Positions 19,282 to 57,915 of a stretch of 64,000 nt of DNA are shown in pieces; position 1 is the stretch's first letter; the number at the start of each line of letters is the position of its first letter. Where the stretch lies: contig NZ_AEMI01000015.1 of NCBI RefSeq assembly GCF_000166715.1, forward strand, positions 62,001 to 126,000, in the 5' to 3' direction. The notes beneath the pieces are model-generated. The model did no database searches, had not been told where the DNA came from, and was given only the letters and a program-made list of their open reading frames with translations. The position numbers and the translations under genes were made by a program. Source of the DNA: Leuconostoc gelidum subsp. gelidum KCTC 3527 (lineage in GTDB: Bacteria > Bacillota > Bacilli > Lactobacillales > Lactobacillaceae).

Positions 19282-19371
19282 ATTTTTTTAGCAATTTTAA
19301 TTAAATAATTTATAAAATATAACTAATCACTTATGTTTATAAGAAATAAATATGTTGCTTGTTTATCATTA

Positions 19372-20127
19372 TTATTTAATTGCTTGATACATAATAAATG
19401 GCGCTTTTGTTTTTTCATTCGTCCAACCATTATAATGATATCTTTTTTTAATCTCTTTTAATTGCGCCGTCGTAAAATCACTTAGCACCGGGTAAGTTAC
19501 CTGTATATTTAAGAATCCTGCCTTTTTTAAATTATTTTCATACATACGATTGGGCCAATGAAAATCATGCAAAATAAGATTTTCGCCCTGAGAAACATGT
19601 AATGTTTCTACTCTTGATTCACCATAACCATAATGCTTACTAGTTACCCCATTTTGAAACGTTGAAAACGGAATGCCTGTCGTATTTGGATTTGTATCTA
19701 ATATAATAAAACAACTACCTGGTTGAAGCACACGATATATTTCAGCCATAATATGTTGAATACGACTTTCAGAATGATTATTTATAAATACGTAACAAGC
19801 GATAGCGCCACCAATTGTATTTTCTTGTACATCCTTTAAACTATCATTTTCAACAACACCATAAACAACGTTTTTGTGTGATCTTTCTGTTTTAGCCAAG
19901 TTGATCATTTTTTGAGATTCATCCACCGCCAAAATATGAGCATTTGTTTGTTGTGCTAGTCTAAGCGATACTTTCCCCGGTCCACAACCGTAATCTAAAA
20001 TAGTGTCGATTGATTTTCCTGAAAAGAATGAGAATATTTTATCATATCCTAAAACTTGTTCTAACACATCATTATACCGATTAAACTGATCAGCAATTTT
20101 ATTATTTTTGAACATATTTTCTATCAT
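19372..20127 (-). CDS. SAM-dependent methyltransferase, bacimethrin-type (BcmC-like)
   Basis: Class I Rossmann methyltransferase of about 251 residues. Motif I is ILDYGCGPGK near residue 43, the acidic end of strand 2 is ILAVDESQKM, and a late motif is VLQPGSCFIILD. The start ATG at 20127 overlaps the stop of the preceding gene as ATGA; an upstream in-frame ATG at 20157 lies inside that gene. Last gene of a TPP-riboswitch operon. In the bacimethrin pathway of Clostridium botulinum (recalled from the literature) a methyltransferase O-methylates 5-hydroxymethylcytosine; that role is inferred here from the neighbours. A decayed copy of this 5' end lies at 34880-34994. Confidence 0.72.
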   Translation of the reverse strand: MIENMFKNNKIADQFNRYNDVLEQVLGYDKIFSFFSGKSIDTILDYGCGPGKVSLRLAQQTNAHILAVDESQKMINLAKTERSHKNVVYGVVENDSLKDVQENTIGGAIACYVFINNHSESRIQHIMAEIYRVLQPGSCFIILDTNPNTTGIPFSTFQNGVTSKHYGYGESRVETLHVSQGENLILHDFHWPNRMYENNLKKAGFLNIQVTYPVLSDFTTAQLKEIKKRYHYNGWTNEKTKAPFIMYQAIK

Positions 20128-21110
20128 AATTTGCCTGCTTTTATTATATTTGGCCACTTGTTATGTAAAAAAAAACGATATATTGGTAACAAATGTGCGA
20201 CTATGACGTCGTCAATTATTTTATGATAATAAATCATTTGATAAATGCTCAATAAAGCCAATACTTGTTGCCAATATACCGATAGGCCTGTTTGCTCGAT
20301 AGATTGCCAACTCATTGTCAATTGATTCTGACGTAATTGCTTTTCATATGTCATAAGTTTTTGAATCATTAACCAGTTATTTTCCTTCGGCATGCTGGGG
20401 AAAACAAATTGATTATATCGCTTTTCTTTTAATACATGAGTGACCCATTGATTATCTGGCTCATAGATATGCATGGTGCCTACACGATGATAATAATTAC
20501 CTACGGCAAGGTTAAGTTCAGTTGCCATTAACTCCTGTATAATAGTGAACGAAAACACGTCACTCACCATACCTCTAAATGCGTCATTTGCCCGCATATA
20601 GGTAATCATCTGCAATTTGTTATGACGAATTAAAAATTGCAAACCAAGCGTACATGAAACATCCAAATTGTCTGCCACCGCCAATTCATTGGCATCAAAA
20701 ATTTGAATCACAGCACGCTTAGAATCTGGATCTTTACGTAAAATTTTTTTAACATTTTCCCATTGATTCAGTTGTCCTTGTCCAAAATGAAAAATTTTAG
20801 AGCCATATGCTGTACCCGTCAGCGTTTGCTTATCCATTGAATAATTAGTCATACGTTGATTGTAATAACTAATATCGCTTAGCTTATTACTACCAGATAA
20901 GTACCACAAGGCCTCTGCAAAATTAAAAATAATATTACATTTACGTTTTGTATTATATATACCACGTTGCACTGGATTTTCAATTTCAAAATCAAACGCT
21001 AACTTTTCACGGCTTTTAAAGCCACGTGGCGCATTATAAAAATCTGCATGATAATAAAGATCATCTAATACAGACATATAGGCACTATCAAATGTTTTAT
21101 AAGTTGTCAT
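20124..21110 (-). CDS. Thymidylate-synthase-family cytidylate hydroxymethylase (BcmA/MilA-like)
   Basis: 328 residues with the thymidylate synthase fold: Glu66 in FAEALWYLSG, catalytic Cys153 in DVSCTLGLQF, His208 and the HIYE end of the nucleotide site. At the position of E. coli ThyA Asn177 (RSCDVFLGLPFN) this protein has Asp184 (RANDAFRGMVSD). That Asn-to-Asp change is the known mark of dCMP/CMP hydroxymethylases, which act on cytosine rather than uracil. It therefore probably makes 5-hydroxymethyl-CMP with methylene-tetrahydrofolate. It starts 36 bp after the NDT-fold gene behind AAGGGG and overlaps the methyltransferase. A housekeeping ThyA is less likely because of Asp184 and the operon. 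Confidence 0.8.
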   Translation of the reverse strand: MTTYKTFDSAYMSVLDDLYYHADFYNAPRGFKSREKLAFDFEIENPVQRGIYNTKRKCNIIFNFAEALWYLSGSNKLSDISYYNQRMTNYSMDKQTLTGTAYGSKIFHFGQGQLNQWENVKKILRKDPDSKRAVIQIFDANELAVADNLDVSCTLGLQFLIRHNKLQMITYMRANDAFRGMVSDVFSFTIIQELMATELNLAVGNYYHRVGTMHIYEPDNQWVTHVLKEKRYNQFVFPSMPKENNWLMIQKLMTYEKQLRQNQLTMSWQSIEQTGLSVYWQQVLALLSIYQMIYYHKIIDDVIVAHLLPIYRFFLHNKWPNIIKAGKL

Positions 21111-21146
21111 ACCAATCCCCTTAATTAATTTTAGTAACTATCTATC

Positions 21147-21584
21147 TTAGTCTAGAAAATGTTGTATTTGCGATAAACAATCAGCTGCATCTGCATAGTA
21201 CAGATATGTCACATTGCCAATTGCACCTAAACCAGTGACTAAATAAGCGTAGGTTGTATCTTTTTGTAAAAGTAAGACAATTTGCTTTTCACATGCCGAA
21301 GCCCACCCAATCTCTATATGTGTTCCTGGAGAAGCAGGTGTGCCTGGAAATGCCATAAATAACTGGCAACTTTTAATAGCTTGGAAATCTGCATGCGTAC
21401 ACTGATTTGGTGACATCATATTTCTTCCCCAATTTTCGCGTTTATGCGCATTATCAACTATAAAATGTTGATTTTCAAGTAGTTGAATCACTTTGTTGAT
21501 CATGTTCTTGTTTCGCGAGTCTATCACCTGTTCTGCCGTAAGCAGTTGTTTAAATGGTGCGGCCAAGAAAATATGTTTGTTCAA
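21147..21584 (-). CDS. NDT-fold nucleotide N-glycosidase (BcmB/MilB-like)
   Basis: 145 residues of the nucleoside deoxyribosyltransferase fold: HIFLAAPF at the N terminus, Asp66, and PGTHIEIGWASACEK, where Glu91 matches the catalytic nucleophile. Relatives MilB and BlsM hydrolyse (hydroxymethyl-)CMP to free base. With the hydroxymethylase next to it, release of 5-hydroxymethylcytosine is the likely step. The start is TTG at 21584 behind AGGAGG; the longer open frame from 21659 would begin inside the riboswitch terminator and is rejected. First gene of the TPP-controlled operon. Confidence 0.75.
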   Translation of the reverse strand: MNKHIFLAAPFKQLLTAEQVIDSRNKNMINKVIQLLENQHFIVDNAHKRENWGRNMMSPNQCTHADFQAIKSCQLFMAFPGTPASPGTHIEIGWASACEKQIVLLLQKDTTYAYLVTGLGAIGNVTYLYYADAADCLSQIQHFLD

Positions 21585-21617
21585 AAAATGCCCTCCTAAA
21601 TTTAAAAGTAACGTATA

Positions 21618-21657
21618 GAAAAAAGCATTTGTAATAACAATGGTTATCATTACAAAC
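21618..21657 (-). terminator. Expression-platform terminator of the TPP riboswitch
   Basis: TTTGTAAT-G-ATAAC pairs with GTTATTACAAA (one bulge) and is followed by TGCTTTTTT on the minus strand. It lies between the TPP aptamer and the TTG start of the NDT-fold gene, the right place for transcription-terminating control. Confidence 0.75.
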
Positions 21658-21714
21658 ACTCTAAATAGATATGGTATGGTTTTTTACGATTGTGTGAGCA
21701 GTCATCGTATGTAT

Positions 21715-21807
21715 CATACTTTCCTACGCTGTTTGCAACAGATCAGGTTCAAAGGGTTCAAAGTCTATCACTTCTCTCTCAGCTTTTTCAAAAGCACCCC
21801 TAGCATG
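21715..21807 (-). promoter_or_regulatory. TPP riboswitch (THI element)
   Basis: Minus strand carries all conserved blocks of the thiamin pyrophosphate aptamer in order: AGGGGTGC, GCTGAGA, ACCC-TTTGAACCTGATCTG, then GCAAACAGCGTAGGAAA. P1 closes with CATGCT (21807-21802) against AGTATG (21720-21715), one G-U pair. With the terminator at 21618-21657 it should shut off the downstream three-gene operon when TPP is plentiful. Confidence 0.93.
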
Positions 21808-21938
21808 TTAATTATTAATCGATTAATAACAAAATGATTCTACCACACATCATAAAAATAATGCAAACCTTAGCCACTTAATAAAATAATTTTTTTCGCT
21901 CATAGACACCTACCATGAGTGACATTATTTTATATAAT

Positions 21939-21988
21939 TCAATACCAATATTTAAATTGGTTCGGTCCAATTTAAATATTGGTATTGA
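21939..21988. repeat. Perfect 22-bp hairpin between the TPP operon and phosphoketolase
   Basis: TCAATACCAATATTTAAATT-GG and its exact reverse complement flank a 6-base TTCGGT loop. On the plus strand CTTTTT follows. It may be a terminator insulating the divergent genes or an operator for one of them. It lies about 170 bp before the phosphoketolase start and 130 bp before the TPP aptamer. Confidence 0.6.
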
Positions 21989-22160
21989 CTTTTTAAGAAA
22001 GAAACATTACGCTAAGGGTGTAAAAAAATAGTTGATGTTTGACAATTTGATTTTTAAATTTTTCATAATACTTTGCAAAGTAATGATCATACGTCGCTGT
22101 GCTTTTACATGATTATTTCATGCACGTTGTCATATATCATCATAACTTGGAGGAATAAAC

Positions 22161-24527
22161 ATGAATATTGACTCAAAAGATTATCTTCGTCATTTAGATG
22201 CTTACTGGCGAGCAGCTAATTATCTATCAGTTGGTCAGCTTTACTTGTTAGACAATCCACTACTAAAAGAAAAACTCACCGCAGATCAAATAAAAATTCA
22301 TCCTATTGGTCATTGGGGAACCATTCCTAGTCAAAATTTCATTTACGCACATTTAAACCGTGCGATTAACAAATTTGATTTAGATATGTTTTATATTGAA
22401 GGCCCTGGACATGGTGGCCAAGTCATGATTTCCAATGCCTACTTAGATGGTAGCTATACTGAAGCGTTTCCAGAGATTACACAAGATTTGACTGGCATGC
22501 AAAAAATGTTTAAACGTTTTTCATTTCCGGGCGGTGTTGCCTCACATGCCGATCCAAAGGTACCTGGTTCTATTCACGAAGGCGGTGCATTAGGTTATTC
22601 GATACTGCATGGTGCAGGTGCTGTATTAGATAATCCAAATCTTATCGCTGCTGTAGTGGTGGGAGATGGTGAAGCTGAAACCGCACCACTTGCTACATCA
22701 TGGCATGTCAATAAGTTTTTAAATCCAAAAAATGACGGCACTGTACTACCAATTTTGAATTTAAACGGCTTCAAAATTGCTAATCCAACAGTCTTGTCAC
22801 GAGAATCTGATGATACCTTAGCAGAATATTTCCATAGTCTTGGTTGGCATCCTTATTTCGTTAGTTCGTTTGATAAGTCTATCATGCAAGTTCATGAAGA
22901 AATGGCCAAAACAATGGACACTGTATTTGAAGAAATCAAACAGATTCGTGAACATGCGGCACAACAAACAAATGATAACGTTACTCGCCCAATTTGGCCA
23001 ATGATTGTTTTACGTTCACCCAAAGGCTGGACTGGTCCCAAAACTTGGGATGGTCAACCTATTGAAAATTCGTTTCGCGCGCATCAAATTCCAATTCCAG
23101 TTGACCAAAATCATCCTGAGTATATACCAGATCTCGTTAATTGGCTAAAGTCATATAGACCAGAAGAGTTATTTGATAAAAATGGTCATTTAGCAGAAGC
23201 TATTCAAGAAGTATTGCCTAAAAAAGACCTGCGTATGGCAAGTAACGCTGTTACCAACGCTGGTATCATTAAATCTTTGTCACTTCCTGATCTCGATGCT
23301 TATCTCGTTAAAGATGCTAAACCAGGAAAACGCCTAGCGCAAGATGCAACTCTGCTAGGGGAGTATATCAGAGATATTATTAAACTCAATCCTACTAATT
23401 TCCGTGGTTTTGGGCCAGATGAAACAGCCTCTAACCGTTTTCAAGACGTTTTTGAAACAACCAATCGTCAATGGTTGCTACCAATTAAAGAGCCAAATGA
23501 TCAATTTATGGCACCTGAAGGTCGTATTATTGATTCGATGCTATCTGAACACTATGACGAGGGTATGTTAGAAGCATATACTCTGACAGGTCGACATGGG
23601 TTCTTTGCAAGTTATGAAATCTTCATTCGTGAAGTTGATGATATGATTGTACAACACTTCAAGTGGCTGAACCATTCGCATGAGGTATCATGGCGTAAAG
23701 ATGTACCAGCTATAAATATCATTGCTGACTCAACAGTATTCCAACAAGATCATAATGGTTATTCACACCAAGATCCTGGTGTCACAACAATGTTATACGA
23801 AAAACAGCCTAATTTTGTTCGTGAATTCTTCCCAGCAGACGCCAATAGTTTAGTTGCAACTTTCCAACATGCTGTACAAATGACACAACAAATCAACTAT
23901 ATTGTTGCAAGTAAGCATCCCCGTCTGCAATGGTTTTCTCCTTATGAAGCACGGCAACTTGTTAAAAACGGATTGCGCATGATTGACTGGGCAAGTACTG
24001 ATCATGGTGAAAAACCTGATATCATTATTGCCTCTGCTGGCTCCGAGCCAACTACTGAAAGTTTAGCAGCGATACAAATTCTCCACCAACATATACCAAC
24101 ATTGAAAATTCGTTATATCAACGTACTCGATTTGTTTAAATTACGTGCAGACGCAACTTATGGTTTGAGTGATGATGAATTTGATAGTTACTTCACAACA
24201 GATACACCTGTCTTGTTTGCTTTTCACGGTTATGAACCTATGATTGAATCGATTTTTTTCAAGCGTCATAATCACAATCTAACAGTTCATGGCTATCGCG
24301 AATTTGGTGATATTACAACACCATTTGATATGCGTGTACTCAATCAAATTGACAGGTTTAACCTGGTCAAGTCAGTGATTACGGCACTACCACATGATGT
24401 CGCTATCAAGCATACTGGTCTTATTCAAGAAATGACAGATATGCTTGATAAACATGTTATCTATACAAGAACGAAAGGGGCTGACTTGCCCGAAATAGAA
24501 AATTGGCAGTGGCAACCTTTGAAATAA
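22161..24527 (+). CDS. xpkA: D-xylulose-5-phosphate/fructose-6-phosphate phosphoketolase
   Basis: TPP-dependent key enzyme of heterolactic fermentation, splitting xylulose-5-phosphate into acetyl phosphate and glyceraldehyde-3-phosphate. 788 residues, full family length. [13 protein letters not shown] near residue 80 and the TPP/Mg motif [17 protein letters not shown] near 167 are phosphoketolase hallmarks; SHQDPG near residue 536 is also conserved. Strong GGAGG ribosome site. A weak promoter (TTGACA at 22039, CATAAT at 22064, 19-bp spacer) lies upstream. It diverges from the TPP-riboswitch operon. Confidence 0.97.
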
Positions 24528-24563
24528 CTTTTTATATATTTTAAATAAAGCACATTTCATTTG

Positions 24564-24593
24564 AAACTCAAGTATTGTTTACTTGAGTTTTTT
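24564..24593 (+). terminator. Intrinsic terminator of xpkA
   Basis: AAACTCAAGTA and TACTTGAGTTT form a stem followed by TTTT, 37 bp after the xpkA stop. Confidence 0.85.
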
Positions 24594-24644
24594 GCGTTTT
24601 TAGTCATAATAGAATACAAATGATTGCTTAAAACAACTGCAACA

Positions 24645-24680
24645 ATTAGTAGCATACTCAGAACTATAAAACTGAATGGT
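24645..24680. repeat. 36-bp direct repeat, left copy
   Basis: Begins ATTAGTAGCATACTC and ends ACTGAATGGT. The identical 36 bases recur at 34991-35026 in the same orientation, 10.35 kb away, bracketing the polyketide-type cluster and the mobile-element relics. Neither flank is shared beyond the 36 bases. Confidence 0.9.
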
Positions 24681-25215
24681 TATAACCGTACGCCAAGCGT
24701 TGGCATCTCGTAAATGTTTGATAAATTTGGCCGTTGACGGTACGCATACACCGTAGTTGGCTGGTTAAAACGATGATTCATAACAGAAAAAATATCGAAT
24801 TCTCGAATTAAACGATGAATATGATTTGTCTCATGGTGTAAAGTTAAGACAGTTAAAATTCGTGGCACCCCATAAGCTTTTTAGTTTTTCTACTGCATTC
24901 TCAGCAAAAATCCCTTTAATAGGTTATCTTCTCGTTGTCGAATCGTCCTGCAATAATTAATCCAATCAAAATAAGTACTCTTGGATATCAGATCAGATGA
25001 AGCATTGTGTTGAGCTTAAAGTTGTGCTTCAATAACGATTAAGTAATTGGCAAATGGCTCCTTTTTGTGTCACCTGCATGTTTTCGCCCAATAAAACTGA
25101 TGCAATTGCTTATCAAGTTGTGCGTGATAAGCTCTCATTTCTTCTTTAAGTCGTGTAACTTCTTTTTGCATCTCATGAAACTCAGAACGACTAACAATCT
25201 TACCGTTCGTTGGTA
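24681..25215 (-). pseudogene. IS3-family transposase relic (OrfA tail + OrfB start)
   Basis: On the minus strand, a coiled-coil OrfA-like tail is read around 25070-25190 (EMQKEVTRLKEEMRAYHAQL), then pieces of OrfB: STYFDWINYCRTIRQRE, and IHRLIREFDIFSVMNHRF with YRQRPNL, as in the N-terminal part of IS3/IS150-type OrfB. Several stops and frame changes interrupt it, and the catalytic DDE part is missing. It is cut off at its left end by the 36-bp repeat. Confidence 0.65.
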
Positions 25216-25399
25216 TCAGCATCAATGATTTGGGCTTTTTTCACACAACAAGTACCAGTTTAAACTGCTAGGTTGTATTCAGTTCGCCGACCGTCCCTCG
25301 TTGTACAAGGCAATGCTTGATGATTTAAATTCAAGTGAGTATCTTTTAACTTTCATAAATAAAAAGCTTCTACATTTAATTCCCTCGAGTTCTGCTCTA

Positions 25400-25910
25400 G
25401 AAATAAAGCAGTTCAGATTTTCAATATGCGAGCCAATTAATGAGGAAAAAAGTATTCAGGAATTACAACTTCACGAACACAATTTAAAAAACAAGTAGAA
25501 CTTATCCAGCTAAATGACACATTGGTTGTCACAAAATTAAATCACTTTGCTCATAAAACACGAAAAACATTAAATTTAATTGATAATTTATTGAAGAAAA
25601 AGTCATCATCGCAGTTTTAAATTTGAAAAAAATTGCCGAAACCTCAATGAATAGTATGATTGTTAAAACCTTGCTATCAGCTTCTTAAATAAGACTGACA
25701 TGATTATTGAATTAACACAAGCCCGTAAAATGTTTATCAAACAACATAAACACATAAACACATAAAATTAATTATTGATCCACAAGAAAAAAGATAGCCA
25801 AAATCCAGCCATCTTTGATTATTCAATAACTCACACTAATAAATTAACAGCTGAAGTATTTAATAGTTCACCAAGAACAGTATCTTATATAAAAGCCATG
25901 TTTACTTAGT
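25400..25910 (+). pseudogene. Decayed serine recombinase (resolvase/invertase)
   Basis: Reading through shifts and stops on the plus strand gives NDTLVVTKLNHFAHKTRKTL, then MIVKTLLSAS and MIIELTQARKMF, which follow the order of conserved blocks in Tn3-type resolvases (DTLVVTKLDRLAR..., ...MLSAFAEMERD-IIERTQ). A degenerate helix-turn-helix end (TAEVFNSSPRTVSYIKAMF) closes it near 25905. The catalytic N-terminal segment is not recognisable. Points to past plasmid or transposon DNA at this edge of the island. Confidence 0.55.
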
Positions 25911-25915
25911 AAGTT

Positions 25916-26291
25916 AACATCAGAACCAGATCAATTTCTTAATTAAACTATTGCTATTCTATATTGCAATAGACCGTCCAATCAGAAAAAATTATGCTAA
26001 ATATATATTAACTAGCAAATAAATAATATTAATCCCACTAATCAAATAGTCACTTGAATCATACATTTGTATTGTAACAAATAACCAGATACTGAGGTAT
26101 TGCTTCAGATAATTGGAAATCTAGTTAATTCGGTAATATTTTCAACCATGTACTTGAATAGTACATTTCAACTATTTTAATTCCATGTTTAATTAAGTAT
26201 AATTTCTTCTTTTACCTTAGAAGTAATTTTTAAAAATAGCTACTCACTTGATATTACTTGTTCTAATGCAGATATCCACAGCTATAATAAC
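25916..26291. other. AT-rich non-coding stretch
   Basis: No reading frame, RNA gene or clear hairpin found. It follows the last gene of the polyketide-type operon and is probably decayed mobile DNA. Confidence 0.5.
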
Positions 26292-27014
26292 CTAAACACT
26301 CATACCACCATCGATTACTAATGTTTGTCCCGTAATATAACTATTAGTAATCAATAATGCTGCTGCATCAGCAACATCAGATGTTCTTCCAAACCTTTTT
26401 AAGGGTATATCATTAATAATTTTTTGTTTATTACGCTCACTAAGTTTATCGGTCATATCTGAGTGAATCATTCCAGGAGCAATTGCATTAACTCTAATAT
26501 TATACCTAGCAGCTTCCAATGAAAGTGTCTTAGTAAAACCAATAACCCCTGCTTTTGAGGTGGCATAATTAGTTTGCCCAACATGCCCCATTTTTGCCAC
26601 AACTGAAGCCATATTTAATATGCTCCCCCCTTGCTTTTTCATAATCATATTTTTATATATCAGTTGTGTAACGTTAAACATACTATGCAAATTAGTATCA
26701 ACTACTTGTATAAAATCACTTCTTGTCATAGATGAAAATAGTTTATCACTTACAATTCCTGCATTATTAACCAAAATATCAATATTTTTTTCATTTAAAA
26801 ATTTGCCCAACTGTAATTGACATTCATCAAAGTTATCCACATCAAATTTTAAAAAAATAACCGGTTTCTCAAATTCTGAAAATATCTTATTTTGCGGTTC
26901 ATTTCTTCCATTCAGAATAATATGCCCACCCATTGAATCTAGCTTCTTAGCAATCGCTAATCCAATGCCCTTTGTTGATCCAGTAACAAGGATATTTTTC
27001 CCATTTACATCCAT
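26292..27014 (-). CDS. FabG-like 3-oxoacyl-ACP reductase (SDR)
   Basis: 240-residue short-chain dehydrogenase with TGSTKGIG cofactor loop, LVNNAGIVSD, catalytic Ser in MASVVAKMG and YATSK, and the C-terminal ITGQTLVIDGGMSV. Sequence type is that of FabG, reducing 3-oxoacyl groups on ACP with NADPH. Last gene of the polyketide-type operon, 5 bp after the PadR gene, with AAGGAAG ribosome site. In the cluster it would supply the ketoreduction between the KS and the dehydratase. Confidence 0.85.
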   Translation of the reverse strand: MDVNGKNILVTGSTKGIGLAIAKKLDSMGGHIILNGRNEPQNKIFSEFEKPVIFLKFDVDNFDECQLQLGKFLNEKNIDILVNNAGIVSDKLFSSMTRSDFIQVVDTNLHSMFNVTQLIYKNMIMKKQGGSILNMASVVAKMGHVGQTNYATSKAGVIGFTKTLSLEAARYNIRVNAIAPGMIHSDMTDKLSERNKQKIINDIPLKRFGRTSDVADAAALLITNSYITGQTLVIDGGMSV

Positions 27015-27019
27015 TTATT

Positions 27020-27547
27020 CTACTTCCTTTTATTGTAGCTATCCAACTGTAGTTGAATTACTTCAATTACTGCTTTATAATATGCCATTCCATATGTTAC
27101 CGTAAAGTTCTGATGATCTGTTATTCCATTACTATCCCAGTCTGACATATTACTTAGTAAGTCATTTAAATCAGATTTTTTCCTGTTTAACTCCTCTTTC
27201 AAAAAATCAATTTGTTTCCCAGGTAATAATGAATCACCAAAATAAATCTTCATCAAAAAATCAGACTTTAAAATTTCTGGCTCTGTTTTCTCATTTACAG
27301 ATTTTTTAAACTCAATTTTACCAGAATCGGTAATAAAAAAAATATTTTTGTTTGGTTTATCATCTTGATTAATTCTTTTTTTAGAAACCAAGCCATCTTT
27401 TTCAAGATTCTTTAGAGTTGGATATATCATTCCAAACCCACCATCATAAAAATGGCGCAAATGAATTTGCAAAATATCGTTTATTTGATAACCTGTAAGT
27501 CCACATTTAGTATTTAATAATCCTAAAATTACCTCTTTACCTTTCAT
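27020..27547 (-). CDS. PadR-family transcriptional regulator
   Basis: 175 residues: a winged helix (ILGLLNTKCGLTGYQINDIL, GMIYPTLKNLEKDGLVSK) followed by a helical C-terminal dimerisation domain of the Vir_act_alpha_C type. PadR proteins are usually repressors released by small phenolic or lipophilic ligands. Its gene overlaps the PPTase end by 11 bp. The palindrome inside the operon promoter (33498-33520) is a candidate binding site, so it may sense the product or a precursor. Confidence 0.85.
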   Translation of the reverse strand: MKGKEVILGLLNTKCGLTGYQINDILQIHLRHFYDGGFGMIYPTLKNLEKDGLVSKKRINQDDKPNKNIFFITDSGKIEFKKSVNEKTEPEILKSDFLMKIYFGDSLLPGKQIDFLKEELNRKKSDLNDLLSNMSDWDSNGITDHQNFTVTYGMAYYKAVIEVIQLQLDSYNKRK

Positions 27548-28070
27548 AATTTATCCTTTCCACATTATAAATTATAGAAATAATATACTTTTTTACTTTA
27601 AAAATATAATATCTTCCCATATACTGAAAACCTGTTTTTGTACTAATAAATTCTACACATTTTTTATCTATAAGATATATATATACTGAATTAATTCCAA
27701 ATGTTAAGCCCAAACCAATGCTCTTTGCAGCAGCCTCCTTCAATGTCCACATTAATGTTAAGGAAATTGATTCATGGTTATTCATAAGCATTTGTTCCGC
27801 ATTATGAAATAAGTAACTAAGTTCAGATTTAATAATCTTTGATTCTACATCAATTCCAATCACTGAATCACTCAAGACAATTAATTTTAATATTTCTTTA
27901 TGAGAAATAGAGCACCAAATTTTTTCTTTACCGTTTGCAAATATATGCGGCTTATTAAATCTGTCCTTAAAAAATTTAATATCATGTAAATCTGGGTAAA
28001 TTAAAGAAATTTCATTTAAAATCAATCTTTCAGAATTTTCATTTATATCTTCAATCATCAAATGAATCAT
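27537..28070 (-). CDS. Sfp-type 4'-phosphopantetheinyl transferase
   Basis: 177-residue protein with the core motifs of the family: SISHKE, IGIDVE (Mg2+ ligands) and WTLKEAAAKSIGLGL. It loads the phosphopantetheine arm onto a carrier protein, here most likely the ACP of the same operon. Shorter than Sfp itself (about 224), nearer in length to compact PPTases. It overlaps the hydrolase gene by 20 bp; an ATG at 28058 overlapping the hydrolase stop is an alternative start. Confidence 0.85.
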   Translation of the reverse strand: MIHLMIEDINENSERLILNEISLIYPDLHDIKFFKDRFNKPHIFANGKEKIWCSISHKEILKLIVLSDSVIGIDVESKIIKSELSYLFHNAEQMLMNNHESISLTLMWTLKEAAAKSIGLGLTFGINSVYIYLIDKKCVEFISTKTGFQYMGRYYIFKVKKYIISIIYNVERINYER

Positions 28071-28959
28071 AATTGTTATCCAAATAAATATTCAATACTT
28101 CGGAAAAGGGCAGAAAATAGTCATAGGAAATAAATGTTTTGAATATTTCTTCTGCAGTTTGCGCAACTGGTTTCAAACGGTCCGTCTCAAATATGTTATT
28201 AACTTTTTTTTCTGTTCTCTTTCTACGTCGTATTGTATTTTTTATATTAATTTTTAATCCATCTAATTCAAACGGCTTTCCATGGCCAATAAATATTTCG
28301 ATAGGTTGTAAATCAACCAATTTTTTCATTTCACCTATAGACATTTTTCTAAAGCTAACCAATTTATTTTGTGTTTTATCCATTTCAATAATATTATTAA
28401 AAAATACATTATGTAAAATGATGTCTCCAGATACAATTTCGGCATTCTTTCTTCGATAACATATTAAATCACTTGATGAATGCCCCTCAACTGGTATAAA
28501 TGTCCATTCTCCAAAACTCGATGTTTCAGTTGATGCTTTAATAGGAAATCCTCTACGTTTTTTTACCGAGTATGAATCGTCATATTCCATCAACATTCTA
28601 TTTAGGATTTGTACTTTATACTCGTCCTTAATTATAAATCTATCAATAAGTCTTTCATTATTTTTGATAGTATTCCACTGAATTCCTTGAAAATTCAAAA
28701 TATTCTCGTTATAAATAACAGGAATACTTTCCGGGAAAAATTTCAATCCACCGATATGATCAATATGATGATGAGTTAGAACTATATATTTTATATCGTC
28801 TAGCTCATTACCTGCATTCCTAAACATCCTTAAAAATACCAAAAAAGATTGCAATCTATCAGGCCCGCAATCAAACAATATTTTGTTTTCATTATCCCAA
28901 TATATGTTAACATCCGGTAACAATTCATCTCCTTGTGAGACCGTGAATTGTTTTAGCAT
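28051..28959 (-). CDS. Metallo-beta-lactamase-fold hydrolase (possible chain-release thioesterase)
   Basis: 302 residues. The metal-binding HxHxDH motif is LTHHHIDHIGG near residue 62, with further ligands in VEGHSSSD, SGDIILH and FIGHGKP. MBL-fold thioesterases release chains from ACP in several type II polyketide systems, which is the likely role beside an ACP and KS, but the fold also serves lactonases and other hydrolases. It starts 4 bp after the dehydratase stop. A basic KNTIRRRKRTEKK stretch precedes a C-terminal helical tail. Confidence 0.75.
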   Translation of the reverse strand: MLKQFTVSQGDELLPDVNIYWDNENKILFDCGPDRLQSFLVFLRMFRNAGNELDDIKYIVLTHHHIDHIGGLKFFPESIPVIYNENILNFQGIQWNTIKNNERLIDRFIIKDEYKVQILNRMLMEYDDSYSVKKRRGFPIKASTETSSFGEWTFIPVEGHSSSDLICYRRKNAEIVSGDIILHNVFFNNIIEMDKTQNKLVSFRKMSIGEMKKLVDLQPIEIFIGHGKPFELDGLKINIKNTIRRRKRTEKKVNNIFETDRLKPVAQTAEEIFKTFISYDYFLPFSEVLNIYLDNNYDSFDD

Positions 28960-28963
28960 CGAA

Positions 28964-29404
28964 CTACTCCCCTGCTTTTAATAATAATGTGGCTTTAGCT
29001 ACTTTCTTATTAGTTTCAAATTTAATTTTCAAACTAACTTCCCAAAAATTTCCTTTTAAAGTCATATCAGTGCTTTCAATAAAAATATTATCATTTGGTT
29101 TTACTATACTGTAAAATGTCGAAACTACTACTTTTACTAAATAAGCCTCATGCATTTCAATATCAAGAACCTTCTGCAGTAAAATCAAAGCCGTCTGTGC
29201 CATGCATTCTATCAGTAAAACACCTGGTACTATTGGCTTATTTGGAAAATGGCCCTGAAAAAAAATTTCATTTTTTCCAAATATTTGATGCGCCTTTATA
29301 TGATTTAAATCAAGATCTAATTCAATTACATCAGTCACAAATCTAAATGGTTCTTTTTGAGGAAGAAGTTCTGAAACCTGTTTCGAGTTTAAATTAGTCT
29401 GCAT
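28964..29404 (-). CDS. FabZ-like 3-hydroxyacyl-ACP dehydratase
   Basis: Hot-dog-fold dehydratase. The FabZ/FabA core FFQGHFPNKPIVPGVLLIE holds the catalytic His, and ECMAQTALILLQ follows in the place of the active-site acidic residue. An upstream in-frame ATG at 29443 exists inside the ACP gene; the ATG at 29404 gives MQTNLNSKQVSELLPQKEPF, which fits the normal FabZ start. It would create the trans double bonds of a growing chain. No enoyl reductase is encoded, so double bonds should persist. Confidence 0.85.
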   Translation of the reverse strand: MQTNLNSKQVSELLPQKEPFRFVTDVIELDLDLNHIKAHQIFGKNEIFFQGHFPNKPIVPGVLLIECMAQTALILLQKVLDIEMHEAYLVKVVVSTFYSIVKPNDNIFIESTDMTLKGNFWEVSLKIKFETNKKVAKATLLLKAGE

Positions 29405-29690
29405 CTCTATTTCCCATTTTGTAAATGTAATTTGCAATTTCATTTACTGTTTGAAAATTATTTTCTTCTCCACTATTCATGACAGCCTCAACATCTAACT
29501 TAAACACGTTAGATATTCCATCAACAATATCTAATGCTTCAACTGAATCTAATGCTAACCCCTCTTCATTGTATAAATTTTCATCATCATCAATTTCATT
29601 TTCAATAACATCTTCAAGTTCCAAACGATTAATTAGAATTTCTTCCTTAATTAAATGTTTAATTTCTTCTAAGCTCATAAATCTATTCAT
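29394..29690 (-). CDS. Acyl carrier protein
   Basis: 98-residue acidic helical protein with the phosphopantetheine motif LALDSVEALDIV (Ser49), preceded by an acidic stretch IENEIDDDENLYNEEGL. The DSVE form differs from the DSLD of housekeeping fatty-acid ACPs and is met in specialised polyene-type carriers. Starts 14 bp after the ketosynthase stop; 3' end overlaps the dehydratase gene. Confidence 0.88.
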   Translation of the reverse strand: MNRFMSLEEIKHLIKEEILINRLELEDVIENEIDDDENLYNEEGLALDSVEALDIVDGISNVFKLDVEAVMNSGEENNFQTVNEIANYIYKMGNRDAD

Positions 29691-29704
29691 AATTTTCGAA
29701 TCTC

Positions 29705-31816
29705 CTAATAATTTTTTAAACTGTTAACATCAAGAACTGTCAGTTCGTTATTTATACTTAACTCCAGTATCAAAACTCTATCCCATTTTTTCGCAATACT
29801 ATCTAGTAAAGCTTTGATTCCCTGGACCCCCGTTCCATCCTCTAATATAAAATCAACATTTTTACTGCTAATAAAATTATTAATTTTATTGGGTGCAATT
29901 AATAATACTTTAGTTTTATCTTGTTTCGTCGCGTTATCAACTGTTTTTTTAACAATCTTTCTAGTTGTAGCATTAACTTGATACGACCTAACTTCATTTA
30001 CTTTTAGTATAGATGTATCTGGTTTAAACTCATTAACCATCTCAATCATAACTACATCTGTTTTAACTGGATGACCTAAAATTTTTTCTGTAACTGAATT
30101 GGATTCTATTCCACTTCCACTCAATATAACGTCCGCACGATTACTTTTTAGGGCCTCAAATGCAATTTCCATTGACTTAAAATCTTCGTTACCACCTGAA
30201 CTAATTGAAGCCGAATACCCTTTTAAATTTAAAGCCCGTGATATTCTCCCTGAGGTAGAATTAACTACTAAATCAGGGAAATATATCCCGCTAGCTTTCC
30301 CAAAACCGTCTTTTCGTATTGAATCACTATATTTTGTAGTAGCATTCATACTGCCTAATGGAGTCCCAAAAATCAAACCATTTCTAGTCGGAATTGTTTG
30401 ATCCTTAAAGACTGAGATGCCTGCAATAATTGAAACTTGGCTCAGTTGATTCATTCTTCGCTGGTACAACAATTTATCAAACTCTTTTAATGGCTTTTCA
30501 GGATTTAATTTAATTCTCTCGTTAACATTTTTTAATTCATTTGTCGTCGATTCAGAAATATAATTAATATAAACAGATTTTTCATCAATTGCTTTATATG
30601 AATTTTCTGTATTATATTTATTATCTAAATTAGTTTTAAAAATGACTGCTGAGTTGTGACCACCAAATGCCGCATTGTTATTTATAAAGATAATGTCTCT
30701 AGTCTTCTGATTTGATAGATCAATGTGTTCTCTAAAAATTTTTTTGTTCCGTGTTTCTTCACGATAATCTTGAAAAGGAAAATTACAATACAATACATTA
30801 TTTTTTAAGCCAATCAAAGTTAAAGCTAATTCCGTACTTGCTGCAGCACCTAAATTATGACCCATATAGCCCTTTAATGAACTGATAAGAGGAACATTTT
30901 TACCAAATACTTGTTCTATTCCCTTTAACTCAGCAACATCATTAGCTTTGGTTCCTGTTCCATGAGAATTTATATAAAATATTTGATCACTTTCAAGACC
31001 ACTGCTTTTAATTGCTTCTCGAATAGCAAATGAAATCCCATTTCCCTCTGCATCAGGTGCTGTTGGATGATGGGCATCGTTAGAAAAACCATATCCCAGT
31101 ATCTCACAAAGAATATCATCACCATCGCGCAATGCTTCCTCTTTGTCTTTAATGATAAAAAATGTCGCAGCCTCTCCTAAATTAAGTCCATAATCATTTC
31201 CATACGGAGTAGCATTTTGTGTATTAAAAGTTTTCAAAGCATTAAATCCAGCATATACCCACTTAGACATTGGATCTGAACCACCGGCAATAACTGTTTT
31301 AGCCTTTCCACTTTCAATCATCTGAGACGCATAAGCAATTGCAGCTGAACTGGCTGCACAAGCTGAATTAAATGAGAATCGTGGTCCCTCAAATCCAAAG
31401 TAGTTACTTAGATCAAACATTTGTTTATATAAAGGATAATTTTTCAAATTATCCTTACCCGATTGACCGGCATCAATGTCATCAAAGTAATCAGACATCG
31501 ATTGAATTCCACCATTACATGTACCTAGAGATAAACCAACATTTTGATAATTGAAGCGTGTATTCTTCAAAAGTTTATTTACTGTATAAATCGTGAGAGC
31601 TGAGCTATTATCAACATTTTCATCAATTGCGATTTTTCTCACTTTTTCCCACGTTTCATGATTCAAGTTTCCAGCAATACTTGACATAAATTCATCTGTA
31701 TCAAAATAATCAATAGTTGATATCCCAGAATTAAATTTCATAATTCTTTCGTGAATTTCATCCTCATTCTCGCCTAGTGAAGACGTCACAGCCATTTTTG
31801 TAATTACAGCAGTCAT
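29705..31816 (-). CDS. Ketosynthase fused to a degenerate KS/chain-length-factor-like half
   Basis: 703 residues. Residues about 1-395 are a complete FabF-like ketosynthase with the Cys-His-His triad: Cys153 (FSFNSACAASSAA), His285 (INSHGTGTKAND) and His320 (LKGYMGHNLGAA). Residues about 440-703 follow a second ketosynthase fold (LIFGTPLGSMNATTKYSDS, FPDLVVNSTSGRISRALN), but the nucleophile site reads SISSGGNEDF, with Gly near 541 in place of Cys, and the two His are not recognisable; it is also shortened. This is the logic of a type II KS-CLF pair on one chain. It would elongate malonyl units on the neighbouring ACP. No malonyltransferase is in the cluster, so FabD is probably borrowed. Confidence 0.85.
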   Translation of the reverse strand: MTAVITKMAVTSSLGENEDEIHERIMKFNSGISTIDYFDTDEFMSSIAGNLNHETWEKVRKIAIDENVDNSSALTIYTVNKLLKNTRFNYQNVGLSLGTCNGGIQSMSDYFDDIDAGQSGKDNLKNYPLYKQMFDLSNYFGFEGPRFSFNSACAASSAAIAYASQMIESGKAKTVIAGGSDPMSKWVYAGFNALKTFNTQNATPYGNDYGLNLGEAATFFIIKDKEEALRDGDDILCEILGYGFSNDAHHPTAPDAEGNGISFAIREAIKSSGLESDQIFYINSHGTGTKANDVAELKGIEQVFGKNVPLISSLKGYMGHNLGAAASTELALTLIGLKNNVLYCNFPFQDYREETRNKKIFREHIDLSNQKTRDIIFINNNAAFGGHNSAVIFKTNLDNKYNTENSYKAIDEKSVYINYISESTTNELKNVNERIKLNPEKPLKEFDKLLYQRRMNQLSQVSIIAGISVFKDQTIPTRNGLIFGTPLGSMNATTKYSDSIRKDGFGKASGIYFPDLVVNSTSGRISRALNLKGYSASISSGGNEDFKSMEIAFEALKSNRADVILSGSGIESNSVTEKILGHPVKTDVVMIEMVNEFKPDTSILKVNEVRSYQVNATTRKIVKKTVDNATKQDKTKVLLIAPNKINNFISSKNVDFILEDGTGVQGIKALLDSIAKKWDRVLILELSINNELTVLDVNSLKNY

Positions 31817-31886
31817 TTTTTCTCCTAATATACTTCATTATTTATTTTATTGCTACATTATATTAATCAACTTAAAAACATTGGCT

Positions 31887-33440
31887 CTAAAATTTGTTCT
31901 TCCAGAACAGTAATGTCAAAACTATAGTAACTATCAGAAAAGGTATTGCTTCTCGATACAAACGTTTGAAAGCATTCAAAACATTACTTTGTGCCGTATT
32001 TTTTATATCTAATAATGCCTTGTTTATCCTTTTATCAATTTTAATATTACCAGTATGCCTTTTAGGTATTTTTGCTGATTTTTGGTTCTTAAGACCTTCA
32101 TTAGATTTTTTAATCAAATGTGGTTTTATTTCTTCAGGAACATTTAATTTTGATACAGTTGATGAAATATAACTTTCAGATTCAATCTGTGCATCATTTA
32201 AATTTGAGTATAAACCAGATACAAAAAGTGCAACTGCTAAGACGATACCAATTTGTCGCAATACCCCAGTTACACTCTGTGATGAGGAAAGTAATTCACC
32301 AGTGAAGTCAGAGGCAGCAATAACAGTTATTGGTCCTGTAATCAACCCATATCCAGCCCCCACAAGGGCGCCATAAAAGCAAGAATATAACTGAATATTT
32401 AGTCCATTATACGTGTAGCCAATGTACCCAATCATCATTAATGAAAACCCAAATGAAATCAGAATTCTTGGACCAACTTTATTTAATGCAAAGCCCGCAA
32501 TAGGTGATGTAATGAAAATAAATAAGGTAATTGGTATTAGCATAAATGAAGCATTTAAGGCATCGAAATTTTTAACATTAGTGTAATAAGTTGGTAATAT
32601 GACGGTAACTGCCACTAAAAATAGATTACTAAAAATTATTACAATAGATGCACCCATAAAATTTCTATTTTTAAATAATTTCAATGGAATCATAGGTTTT
32701 TCTACTTTAAGTTCAACAAACAAAAAACTGACAAGAAAAACTACTGAACTAAACATAAATATCAATGAAGTTGTTGATGCCCATCCCCAATTTCTTCCTT
32801 GTGTTAGAACCGTTGTTAAGCTTAAAAGAAATGAGATACTTAGACTTGATCCCAAAATGTCGAAATTGTGAATGTCGTCATTTTTTTCACTAAAATCGAG
32901 TAAATTACATCCAATAATTAAAATGAAAATCACAATTGGCAAGTTAACAAAGAAGATCCATCTCCAAGTTAAATATTGTGTAATAACTCCACCAATTACT
33001 GGTCCTAATGCGGCAGCAAGTCCTTGTGTAACACCCAATACCGCTATAACACCAGTTCTTTTATCAGTTTCTACTAATTTAATTCCAAGTATCATCGAAA
33101 GTGGAAAGACTAAAGCAGCACCAATACTCTGAATAGCACGGCCAAACACCAATATTTCTATCCCATTGGACAATCCTGAAATCAGTGAACCAATACCGAA
33201 TAATATGAAACCTAACATTATCACTTTATTCATACCAAACTTTTCAGCTACTCTCGTTAAAGGAATAGTCAAAGCGGCAAATAAAATTGTATAAATGTTT
33301 AGAGCCCAAGATAAATTGTTTAGAGAAGTAGAGAACGCAACACTAATCTCTGGTAACGCTACATTCATTACCGTAGTATCAAGCATGCATATGAATATTC
33401 CACAAACAAAAATTGTAAGTTTTAATCTGGTTCTGTTCAT
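31887..33440 (-). CDS. MFS exporter, DHA2 (14-helix) family
   Basis: 517-residue permease of the EmrB/QacA type. CMLDTTVMNVALPEIS in helix 1, GRAIQSIGAALVFP, and the antiporter motif ALGPVIGGVIT with TWRWIFFVNLP are diagnostic. A longer loop of charged residues (about 425-480) precedes the last helix. As first gene of the operon, it most likely exports the cluster product and gives self-protection. Ribosome site TAAGGAAA. It replaces the ABC exporter seen in cyl-type polyene clusters. Confidence 0.85.
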   Translation of the reverse strand: MNRTRLKLTIFVCGIFICMLDTTVMNVALPEISVAFSTSLNNLSWALNIYTILFAALTIPLTRVAEKFGMNKVIMLGFILFGIGSLISGLSNGIEILVFGRAIQSIGAALVFPLSMILGIKLVETDKRTGVIAVLGVTQGLAAALGPVIGGVITQYLTWRWIFFVNLPIVIFILIIGCNLLDFSEKNDDIHNFDILGSSLSISFLLSLTTVLTQGRNWGWASTTSLIFMFSSVVFLVSFLFVELKVEKPMIPLKLFKNRNFMGASIVIIFSNLFLVAVTVILPTYYTNVKNFDALNASFMLIPITLFIFITSPIAGFALNKVGPRILISFGFSLMMIGYIGYTYNGLNIQLYSCFYGALVGAGYGLITGPITVIAASDFTGELLSSSQSVTGVLRQIGIVLAVALFVSGLYSNLNDAQIESESYISSTVSKLNVPEEIKPHLIKKSNEGLKNQKSAKIPKRHTGNIKIDKRINKALLDIKNTAQSNVLNAFKRLYREAIPFLIVTIVLTLLFWKNKF

Positions 33441-33497
33441 AAATATATTTCCTTAATTTTATTATTAACATTGTTAATACAATCATGTTAACAATAT

Positions 33498-33527
33498 ACA
33501 TATTAACACAGTTAATATGTATGTCAA
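33498..33527 (-). promoter_or_regulatory. Promoter with embedded operator of the polyketide-type operon
   Basis: TTGACA (33527-33522), 16-bp spacer, TAATAT (33505-33500). Between and over these lies a near-perfect palindrome ACATATTAAC-TGT-GTTAATATGT (33520-33498). A second TTAACA-type palindrome, ATTAACATTGTTAAT, lies at 33464-33478 just downstream. The layout suits repression by a dimeric regulator, most simply the PadR protein of this operon. Confidence 0.65.
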
Positions 33528-33540
33528 CATTTTTCACTTA

Positions 33541-34683
33541 AAAAAATATAGGAATATTTTTTGACTATGTTGACATATTGTTTACTGATGCTACCACCTC
33601 TTGAATCCCTTATCTTTTATTACGTATAAATCTAGCATTGATGAATGATAAATACTTACTAAGTATTTTACACATCCAGACAATTTAACATATTTGTATT
33701 CAGTTTTTTATTACTAAATTGTTACCCATACATCAATATACCCTGATGATAACTTATTTTATATCATAGTTTCTCACTATTATGATTAATAAAAAAATGA
33801 TACAGCTATTAAGTTATTTCACCTTAGCTTGTTGATTTATAAAAGAAGATTGAACGTTGAAATTATTTAAAATAAATGTTAGAGAGGTTAAATAAAATCT
33901 TAAAAATACCAAACATTCCAGATGAATGATAGTCAATATGGTATTGCCTTCGAATTAGGAACCACGAAATTTCAATTATAGGGTCTAGCAAATAAAAAAC
34001 AGAAAAATTTACTTCACTTAATCAACATATCCCATGAGATAATTATATTTAGAACTTTTTTGCTAACATCCATTCACAATCATTAAAACTTTATGGCGAA
34101 GTTGCATTGTATTTTGATAACCAAGGCATGTAAGACCTTCTTGTTGAACGCTTTTTAAAAGATACTATTAATTGCATTAAAATATATTAAAAGTTATCTT
34201 GTGTTTCGAAAAGATTACAATCATGTATTTTGCCATATTAGTAATGATTTTGATAATTTTTGACGTTTTATTCAGTATAAGCTGTGGTCGAAATTTAAGT
34301 CATTCGTCTTTTTAATTATCTCTACATATAACTTAATTTTATAATTGTTACGTTGTGAATTTTTTGGACCAACACCCTATAATTACTAGATCAGGTTACT
34401 TTTCTAGTATAAGAAAAGTACAAATTTTTTTTAAACGTTACTTAGTCATAATAGAAGAAGAAAAGACCTCGTTAGGGAGAAGACATTTTTTTGGTTTGAG
34501 AGATAATATTTTATCGTGAAAGTTAGTAAAAATATATGTTTTTTATTTTTCTGAACTGTTTAGATTTATTATTATAATTATTTTTTAAATTATTTACAAG
34601 TTGTATCCTTTACTCGCGAGATTAATTATTATGATAAATTGAAAGAAAACTACTATTTGCCCAATTGTAAATCGTTTTGAAAG
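33541..34683. other. AT-rich non-coding stretch with gene debris
   Basis: No intact frame over about 1.1 kb. Around 33945-34190 plus-strand frames give fragments such as YGIAFELGTTKFQL and SLKLYGEVALYFDNQGM separated by stops, suggesting a decayed gene of the sugar-kinase/ASKHA type, but too little remains to identify it. The rest shows nothing recognisable. Confidence 0.4.
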
Positions 34684-34801
34684 CAGTAACTAAAACATAA
34701 GCAACTATTTCTGATGACGAATTCAGAAAACGAGCAATTTCACGCATTGAATGATTGAATTAAGACATTGTTTCGATAGCAGAGAGTTCATGGGAAGACA
34801 T
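34684..34801 (-). pseudogene. IS30-family transposase N-terminal relic
   Basis: Minus-strand translation from ATG 34801 reads MSSHELSAIETMS, a stop, then FNHSMREIARFLNSSSEIVAY, which follows the helix-turn-helix start of IS30 transposases (...ELxxIE...SxREIAxxLxRSxSTISRE). The remaining 250 or so codons are missing. Confidence 0.6.
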
Positions 34802-34879
34802 AAGCTGCGGGTTCTTATGTTTGTTTTAGACAATTACCATTAAAATCACTGAATTTTTTTCAAAATGCTCAGTTCAATT

Positions 34880-34994
34880 TTGCAATCTGCCATATTCTAA
34901 AACGTGTCATAATACCTTATGATTCTGGTCAAATTAATTAACAATTTTATTATTTTTGAACATTTTTTCTATTATGATTTACCTACTTTTATTA
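34880..34994 (-). pseudogene. Decayed duplicate of the BcmC-like methyltransferase 5' end
   Basis: Aligns with 20045-20145 on the same strand: CAATTTTATTATTTTTGAAC is identical, and the flanks match with scattered changes and small indels (plus-strand CCTACTTTTATTA versus CCTGCTTTTATTA; CATATTCTAAAAC versus CATATCCTAAAAC). It covers the end of the hydroxymethylase gene and the first ~30 codons of the methyltransferase, with an in-frame stop. Its right end touches the 36-bp repeat at 34991. Confidence 0.75.
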
Positions 34995-57720: not shown

Positions 57721-57741
57721 GCAATAAAACAATCGTTTCTG

Positions 57742-57899
57742 TCATAGCACCCCGCAATTGCGACAGTTCATTAGCTATTAACTAATGCCCCAGCTTGCTG
57801 ACATGACAGTATCAGTGCTTCGGCCACAACCCCTTTTACTCGTTTCACAGTATCTATCAATACTCCGCGAGTGACTCATGGTTACAGCAACCTCTATGA
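57742..57899 (-). promoter_or_regulatory. Lysine riboswitch (L box)
   Basis: Minus strand shows the conserved blocks in order: ATAGAGGTTGC, GGAGTATTGATAG, TACTGTGAAACGAG, AAAAGGGG, GGCCGAAGC, GCTGG, and a final GGGTGCTATGA. P1 closes with TCATAG (57899-57894) and CTATGA (57747-57742). A terminator follows. High lysine should stop transcription of alr-asd. Confidence 0.85.
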
Positions 57900-57915
57900 T
57901 TTTCTCATTGTTTTT

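Follow-up and report, generated by a model that had tools for sequence, protein, structure and literature searches.

A riboswitch-controlled, bacimethrin-type operon of Leuconostoc paired with a divergent second phosphoketolase that may be an insensitive target copy

In a 64,000-nt stretch of the Leuconostoc gelidum subsp. gelidum KCTC 3527 genome (NZ_AEMI01000015.1, positions 62,001-126,000; hereafter the window), three minus-strand genes encoding an NDT-fold N-glycosidase, a thymidylate-synthase-family protein and an S-adenosylmethionine (SAM) methyltransferase (NDT-TS-MT, hereafter the trio) follow a thiamin pyrophosphate (TPP) riboswitch and lie divergently from a gene for a second phosphoketolase, Xpk2. 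The trio very probably makes the thiamin antivitamin bacimethrin, judging from its sequence, and we lean towards viewing the locus as an operon for an antivitamin that brings along its own insensitive version of a target enzyme, Xpk2, although the self-resistance proposed for Xpk2 is the weaker of the two claims. The trio and its riboswitch are of a known type; what is new here is the constant phosphoketolase and a sequence dyad specific to the unit. Coordinates are collected in Table 1.

The bacimethrin assignment is so probable because residues determining preference for cytidine monophosphate (CMP) and a motif for 5-hydroxymethyl-CMP (hmCMP) are kept, and because the same trio stands behind a TPP riboswitch in Priestia. 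Specifically, the synthase-like protein matches the MilA structure 5jnh over its full length at 329.6 bits against 55 bits for the best thymidylate synthase, and falls below the cut-offs of all seven listed NCBIfam thymidylate synthase models (best score 73.3 bits, cut-off 327 bits), which rules out an ordinary thymidylate synthase. A grouping with true ThyA, named in the original prediction made from the window's letters as an outcome that would speak against it, is thus not what is seen. In MilA, Lys133 and Ala176 underlie CMP preference and Asp186 is cytosine-specific, with Cys155, Glu68, His216 and Tyr218 also implicated (PMC5175136). These positions correspond to K131, A174, D184, C153, E66, H214 and Y216 in the window and are invariant in all 11 aligned synthases (eight of the nine from Leuconostoc, G280 being left out, and three plasmid sequences); the motifs around K131, C153, A174 and D184 are kept in all nine Leuconostoc enzymes. 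In G280 the hydroxymethylase frame carries one in-frame TAG, with the methyltransferase and Xpk2 frames open. Related synthases occur on plasmids elsewhere: one of Leptospira interrogans (38% identity) lies beside hypothetical genes, and one of Streptomyces sp. 3211 is accompanied by a glycosidase and then by genes annotated as hydroxymethylpyrimidine (HMP) kinase, flavin adenine dinucleotide (FAD) oxidoreductase and P450; near this pair no methyltransferase is annotated, and the set perhaps makes another hydroxymethylcytosine-derived product.

The best match of the glycosidase in the PDB is 4jen, labelled CMP N-glycosidase, which we take to be BcmB of Clostridium botulinum. Its start is preferred at the TTG at 21584, which is preceded by GGAGG at 7 nt and makes the alignment with 4jen begin at residue 1, over the mechanically called GTG at 21659. 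The motif FL(G/A)(G/A)PF(R/K)XL marks hmCMP specificity, Lys being the residue reported for BcmB (PMC4081090), and occurs as FLAAPFKQL, with Lys, in all nine Leuconostoc glycosidases. The methyltransferase is the least secure assignment of the trio: it is generic by family, and even the best match in the PDB is a weak one (8.2e-06). It is 50% and 37% identical to its trio counterparts on plasmids of Priestia megaterium and Streptomyces microflavus, respectively (eight of the nine Leuconostoc sequences were aligned, G328 being left out). As to whether it might fall in a clade with a different known substrate, also raised in the original prediction, the comparison was with these two trio enzymes, which it matches.

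The aptamer of the window exceeds the RF00059 gathering score (54.3 bits), as do those at all nine trio-bearing Leuconostoc loci. A consensus terminator scan called no minus-strand terminator between aptamer and NDT; on folding, a stem (21662-21622) running into a U6 run (21624-21619) is visible there. A stem and U run between aptamer and first gene were seen by eye in all nine Leuconostoc leaders and in Priestia, which fits control through transcription termination. Aptamer and gene order are kept in nine of nine genomes at protein identities to the window of 56-86%, so the arrangement is not due to chance. The claims of the original prediction that the three genes are tightly packed (TS and MT share 4 bp), that an aptamer and terminator precede them, and that they form the bacimethrin enzyme set are accordingly upheld, the product being predicted from the matches, specificity residues and motif described above. 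Its statement that no thiamin biosynthesis gene or thiaminase I lies beside the trio stands in that none was seen, but it passed over the divergent neighbour, a phosphoketolase dependent on thiamin diphosphate (ThDP); its description of the operon as a minimal version fails, as a second phosphoketolase accompanies the trio in all nine genomes.

The trio is not confined to KCTC 3527. A synthase search at 1e-30 in 397 genomes of the same family gave ten matches, from nine of the 19 Leuconostoc genomes and, as a partial match of 38%, from another genus; the methyltransferase is present in the same nine genomes, in all of which the trio stands behind the riboswitch, and an alignment scan for it in 398 genomes sampled from the phylum matched only the genome of KCTC 3527. 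Clustering of open reading frames (ORFs) around the nine loci left exactly four families common to all, namely xpk2, NDT, TS and MT, with neither thiaminase I nor ThiD2 as a constant neighbour among these families (single loci were not profile-scanned). Three chromosomal contexts are represented: six loci are flanked by argF and an NFACT-like gene, two adjoin a suf operon and have tRNA genes at the far end, and one is elsewhere (argF, argH, NFACT, suf and Yko are names read from the sequences).

Self-resistance through a duplicate of the target is known in antibiotic gene clusters, and Leuconostoc is alike in carrying an extra, divergent copy of the likely target linked to biosynthetic genes; to our knowledge there is no such example for a thiamin antivitamin or for a phosphoketolase. 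The gene xpk2 adjoins the trio divergently in all nine trio genomes, encoding proteins 84-100% identical to that of the window, and is an extra copy, the housekeeping Xpk1 of the same genome being about 53% identical. The ten trio-free Leuconostoc genomes hold phosphoketolase copies or fragments only at 52-56% identity to Xpk2 and none of its type, and no genome among the 19 has the trio without xpk2 or xpk2 without the trio. An extra divergent copy that is linked to, and co-occurs with, biosynthetic genes, as expected of a target duplicate, is therefore found in nine of nine trio genomes against none of ten others, a split with a probability of 1 in 92,378 if ancestry is ignored; on an rpoB tree (a single gene), the label of trio plus xpk2 changes at least six times.

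Strong purifying selection acts on Xpk2, which seems to be a functional enzyme, albeit an altered one: dN/dS is 0.045-0.054 (five pairs), compared with 0.040-0.135 (four pairs) for the housekeeping copy. Its His51, His84, Gly142, Asp169 and Asn202 align with His64, His97, Gly155, Asp182 and Asn215 of the Bifidobacterium breve phosphoketolase (numbered on the assumption of a 20-residue tag in 3ahc), which we take to be catalytic, Mg-binding or ThDP-contact residues. Two motifs are changed, HEGG[E>A]LGY (Ala143, directly after the presumed ThDP-contacting Gly) and ET[G>A]P within GDGEAETGP (Ala175), in nine of nine Xpk2 proteins and in none of 49 other aligned phosphoketolases (19 of the 22 non-Xpk2 Leuconostoc copies, a copy from G112 and both fragments from G338 being omitted, together with 30 of the numerous family copies). 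E143A, G175A and perhaps Ala423 would be candidate determinants of tolerance of a 2'-methoxy cofactor.

The intergenic region between the trio and xpk2 contains a tandem dyad of two 16-bp sites, 22 bp apart from centre to centre. With up to two mismatches allowed, every one of the nine trio genomes has a single copy (exact in eight, with two mismatches in G251) and the ten trio-free genomes have none, and a reversed control pattern is found in none of the 19. The two sites are exact reverse complements at five of the nine loci, with one mismatch at two, three at one and four at one. The tandem dyad may be a regulator binding site or may instead form a hairpin. In the adjoining promoter-like element of xpk2, the conserved part is TTGACT-N17-TACG. 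The second dyad, ACTTTGCAAAGT, was rejected as a unit-specific signal, one site each being present in three of the ten trio-free genomes and more than one in three of the nine trio genomes; that the xpk2 leader holds a riboswitch of a known class was likewise rejected, with no Rfam match. In alignment-based folding (alifold) of the nine xpk2 leaders, the ACTTTGCAAAGT palindrome formed a hairpin of 5 bp (-1.0 kcal/mol) and nothing else folded, though even this was reached by none of 200 column shuffles.

Table 1 Features of the four-gene unit and its surroundings (positions within the window)
Feature	Position	Strand	Evidence or remark
TPP riboswitch aptamer	21704..21811	-	Rfam RF00059, 62.4 bits, E 7.6e-10
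Riboswitch terminator (hairpin plus U run)	21619..21662	-	19-bp stem into U6
Likely trio promoter TTGCAT-N18-TAGAAT	21837..21866	-	By eye; conserved block upstream of the aptamer, 9 aligned intergenic regions
CMP/hmCMP N-glycosidase, BcmB/MilB type, 145 aa	21147..21584	-	4jen 1.1e-45, MilB 4jem 6.6e-35, motif FLAAPFKQL
CMP 5-hydroxymethylase, BcmA/MilA type, 328 aa	20124..21110	-	5jnh 1.7e-97 versus ThyA 5.5e-14
SAM methyltransferase (predicted methylation site: O2 of hydroxymethylcytosine), 251 aa	19372..20127	-	Pfam Methyltransf_25 1.4e-14
Second phosphoketolase Xpk2, a proposed target copy insensitive to the antivitamin	22161..24527	+	NCBIfam NF003618 1360.9 bits, cut-off 1199
Tandem dyad CCAATN6ATTGG-N6-CCAATN6ATTGG, candidate shared operator	21945..21982	.	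One site per trio genome
Likely xpk2 promoter TTGACT-N17-TACGCT	21985..22013	+	By eye, 9 aligned loci; 2 bp after the dyad
Second conserved dyad ACTTTGCAAAGT, xpk2 leader	22070..22081	+	Exact in 9/9 xpk2 leaders
15.6-kb stretch absent from close relative G054	19307..34893	.	blastn; flanks 98-99% identical, 43 bases apart in G054

A need for protection is suggested by the thiamin genes of the host. The KCTC 3527 genome has five TPP aptamers, one before ThiM-ThiD-ThiE and one before an ECF-type transporter (Yko-type by reading) with TenA; ThiM, ThiD, ThiE and TenA each score above an NCBIfam cut-off. Two aptamers of this genome stand in tandem, 78 bases apart (C8:114816-115084), and the next ORF of at least 100 aa after them has 213 aa. 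The cell thus probably imports and pyrophosphorylates a pyrimidine, and a producer with ThiM-ThiD-ThiE and a TPP-controlled vitamin-type transporter would be exposed to its own bacimethrin. Bacimethrin would then be converted to 2'-methoxy-TPP in the producer as well (mechanism as given in PMC12345177 and PMC5627462), and phosphoketolase is described as the pivotal enzyme of the central route of Leuconostoc, in which the Embden-Meyerhof-Parnas (EMP) and Entner-Doudoroff (ED) routes are incomplete (PMC11279345).

Under the proposed mechanism, scarcity of TPP would let the riboswitch pass transcription beyond the terminator, whereupon the hydroxymethylase would turn CMP into 5-hydroxymethyl-CMP, the N-glycosidase would release 5-hydroxymethylcytosine and the methyltransferase would yield the 2-methoxy pyrimidine bacimethrin. 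Once released, bacimethrin would be taken up by thiamin-salvaging competitors, whose ThiD and ThiE would build 2'-methoxy-TPP and so poison their ThDP enzymes. Meanwhile the divergent xpk2, which has its control region and the unit-specific dyad in common with the trio, would supply a phosphoketolase that keeps working, so that central carbon flux survives. For the enzymatic steps and for how 2'-methoxy-TPP poisons we go by what is known of relatives; the release of bacimethrin, the resistance role of Xpk2 and the dyad as a regulator site are proposals. More tentatively, and with slightly less than even confidence, immunity may take the form of a rebuilt copy of the pivotal ThDP enzyme of the cell, with a dedicated regulator acting on the tandem dyads to drive both halves from a single control region.

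The bacimethrin operon of C. botulinum A has the same three enzymes, CMP hydroxymethylase, hmCMP glycosidase and SAM methyltransferase (PMC12345177, PMC5627462). By contrast, it adds genes for thiaminase I, the kinase ThiD2 and transporters, whereas the only constant neighbour in Leuconostoc is the phosphoketolase; linked thiaminase I and ThiD2 are accessory, and the three reactions do not need them. In the operons described for Paenibacillus thiaminolyticus, P. apiarius and P. dendritiformis, NDT-TS-MT stands under a putative TPP riboswitch, so that such control of a bacimethrin-type operon is already known, but together with thiM-thiD-thiE, thiaminase I and the Nudix protein YzgD, which the authors considered possibly protective (PMC5627462). 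Microcystis is alike in product, bacimethrin having been detected in it, and unlike in its synthase, at most 30% identical to a bacterial one, and in the ABC transporter and ThiD2 of its cluster (PMC12345177). The Priestia megaterium plasmid pPmC-129-1 (NZ_CP069398.1) has a TPP riboswitch (79.8 bits) and the genes in the order NDT-TS-MT at 48, 55 and 50% identity, followed, unlike in Leuconostoc, by a HAD-Nudix gene and transporter genes; no phosphoketolase, thiaminase I or ThiD2 is annotated near the trio in a 15-kb stretch with an incomplete gene table. Bacimethrin is reported to have been isolated first from P. megaterium, in a strain other than the one bearing pPmC-129-1. Mildiomycin biosynthesis differs in that, presumably, hydroxymethylcytosine goes into a nucleoside antibiotic without the methyltransferase step of bacimethrin and without TPP control. 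Its MilA and MilB agree with the Leuconostoc enzymes in the first two reactions and in the diagnostic residues (PMC5175136, PMC4081090). A Nudix protein in Paenibacillus and a HAD-Nudix protein in Priestia, as against a phosphoketolase in Leuconostoc, form the core of the case for resistance. In the literature covered, which excluded subscription papers, no bacimethrin paper also named Leuconostoc or phosphoketolase, and bacimethrin met lactic acid bacteria only in a surface-sanitising paper, with one mention each.

Several observations weigh against the insensitive-target interpretation. The co-occurrence count is weakened because neighbours can be lost together in one deletion, and the trio-free genome G338 is only 89% complete, in 890 contigs, its phosphoketolase being seen as two fragments. 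Extra phosphoketolases also occur unlinked to the trio: G202 has two Xpk1-type copies and no trio, and G112 (Leuconostoc inhae) has a third phosphoketolase, 58% identical to Xpk2, on a contig other than that of its trio (G112:C13:6089-8461). Of the columns that are otherwise invariant, 21 are broken by Xpk1 and 15 by Xpk2, for which reason clade-specific substitutions were rejected as proof of resistance; among the changes singled out, E143A and G175A alone are confined to Xpk2, Ala423 and Val526 also being found in other solved phosphoketolases, and the changed positions are placed near the ThDP pocket by contacts that we take to be correct, not by a computed structure. Among the dS values behind the selection estimates, several are near saturation (1.3-1.9). 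Other ThDP enzymes of the producer would stay sensitive, ORF clustering found no exporter common to the nine loci, and the methyltransferase was compared with the Priestia and S. microflavus trio enzymes, not directly with that of C. botulinum.

Granting that the trio makes bacimethrin, Xpk2 might be a general second isoenzyme for low TPP, cold or pentose that is retained for its use in the same starvation state and has no part in resistance. Its nearest relatives outside the genus, 66-67% identical and from other genera of the family, group with it in a phosphoketolase tree whose outside sequences were picked as closest to Xpk2, which suggests an apparently ordinary functional type, and the presumed catalytic and Mg-binding residues are kept. 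That Xpk2 was never found without the trio in 19 genomes, that the dyad is unit-specific and that substitutions fall in otherwise invariant motifs nonetheless make this explanation unlikely, if far from negligible. Alternatively, the linkage could be an accident of ancestry, an old block having been lost whole in several lineages, as would fit the block-free argF-NFACT junctions of trio-free genomes (gaps of about 40 bp in G318, G293, G202, G085 and G235, and of about 420 bp in G016). However, the two halves also stand together in two other chromosomal contexts, the tandem dyad lies in the promoter region common to both units in all nine genomes and nowhere else in the 19, and Xpk2 is constrained like Xpk1; we consider such an accident quite improbable.

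The alternatives are not all mutually exclusive, and a further one, compatible with any interpretation of Xpk2, is that the product is another methylated hydroxymethylcytosine, with the methyl group at another position or as part of a further nucleoside. The generic family and weak structural match of the methyltransferase leave some room for this, but TPP-riboswitch control in two genera renders it improbable, as does the occurrence of the trio both in P. megaterium and in bacimethrin-type operons already described. That the genes serve thymidylate or nucleotide salvage and the riboswitch is incidental, in keeping with the match of the TS-like protein to Pfam Thymidylat_synt, is already contradicted by the NCBIfam cut-offs, by the MilA-type K131, A174 and D184 and by the aptamer at nine of nine loci, and can scarcely be credited.

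The four-gene unit of KCTC 3527 lies in a stretch absent from the close relative G054, together with a fatty-acid-synthase-like gene set (26292-33440, minus strand) comprising a ketoacyl synthase, a FabA-like dehydratase, a metallo-beta-lactamase-fold protein, a phosphopantetheinyl transferase, a short-chain reductase, a PadR regulator and an MFS transporter; the set resembles a small biosynthetic cluster of fatty-acid or polyketide type. At two of the six trio loci between argF and NFACT an MFS gene lies next to argF. It was rejected as an exporter belonging to the unit, since an MFS gene also adjoins argF in the trio-free G219, G160, G054 and G338, which have no trio or xpk2 match within the stretches examined. 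A strong lysine riboswitch (91.2 bits) lies at 57737-57904 on the minus strand.

If the proposed mechanism is true, a genus of common food fermenters would, as far as we know, provide the first case in which a maker of a thiamin antivitamin resists it by replacing the target. Leuconostoc species, among them food bacteria, would make an antagonist of vitamin B1 exactly when B1 is short, which would matter for the outcome of competition between species in fermentations and spoilage. The linked phosphoketolase opens producer self-protection against thiamin antivitamins to direct testing, the Xpk2 sequence would constitute a natural experiment on the tolerance of a ThDP enzyme for a 2'-methoxy cofactor, and the four-gene unit could serve as a genome marker for producers.

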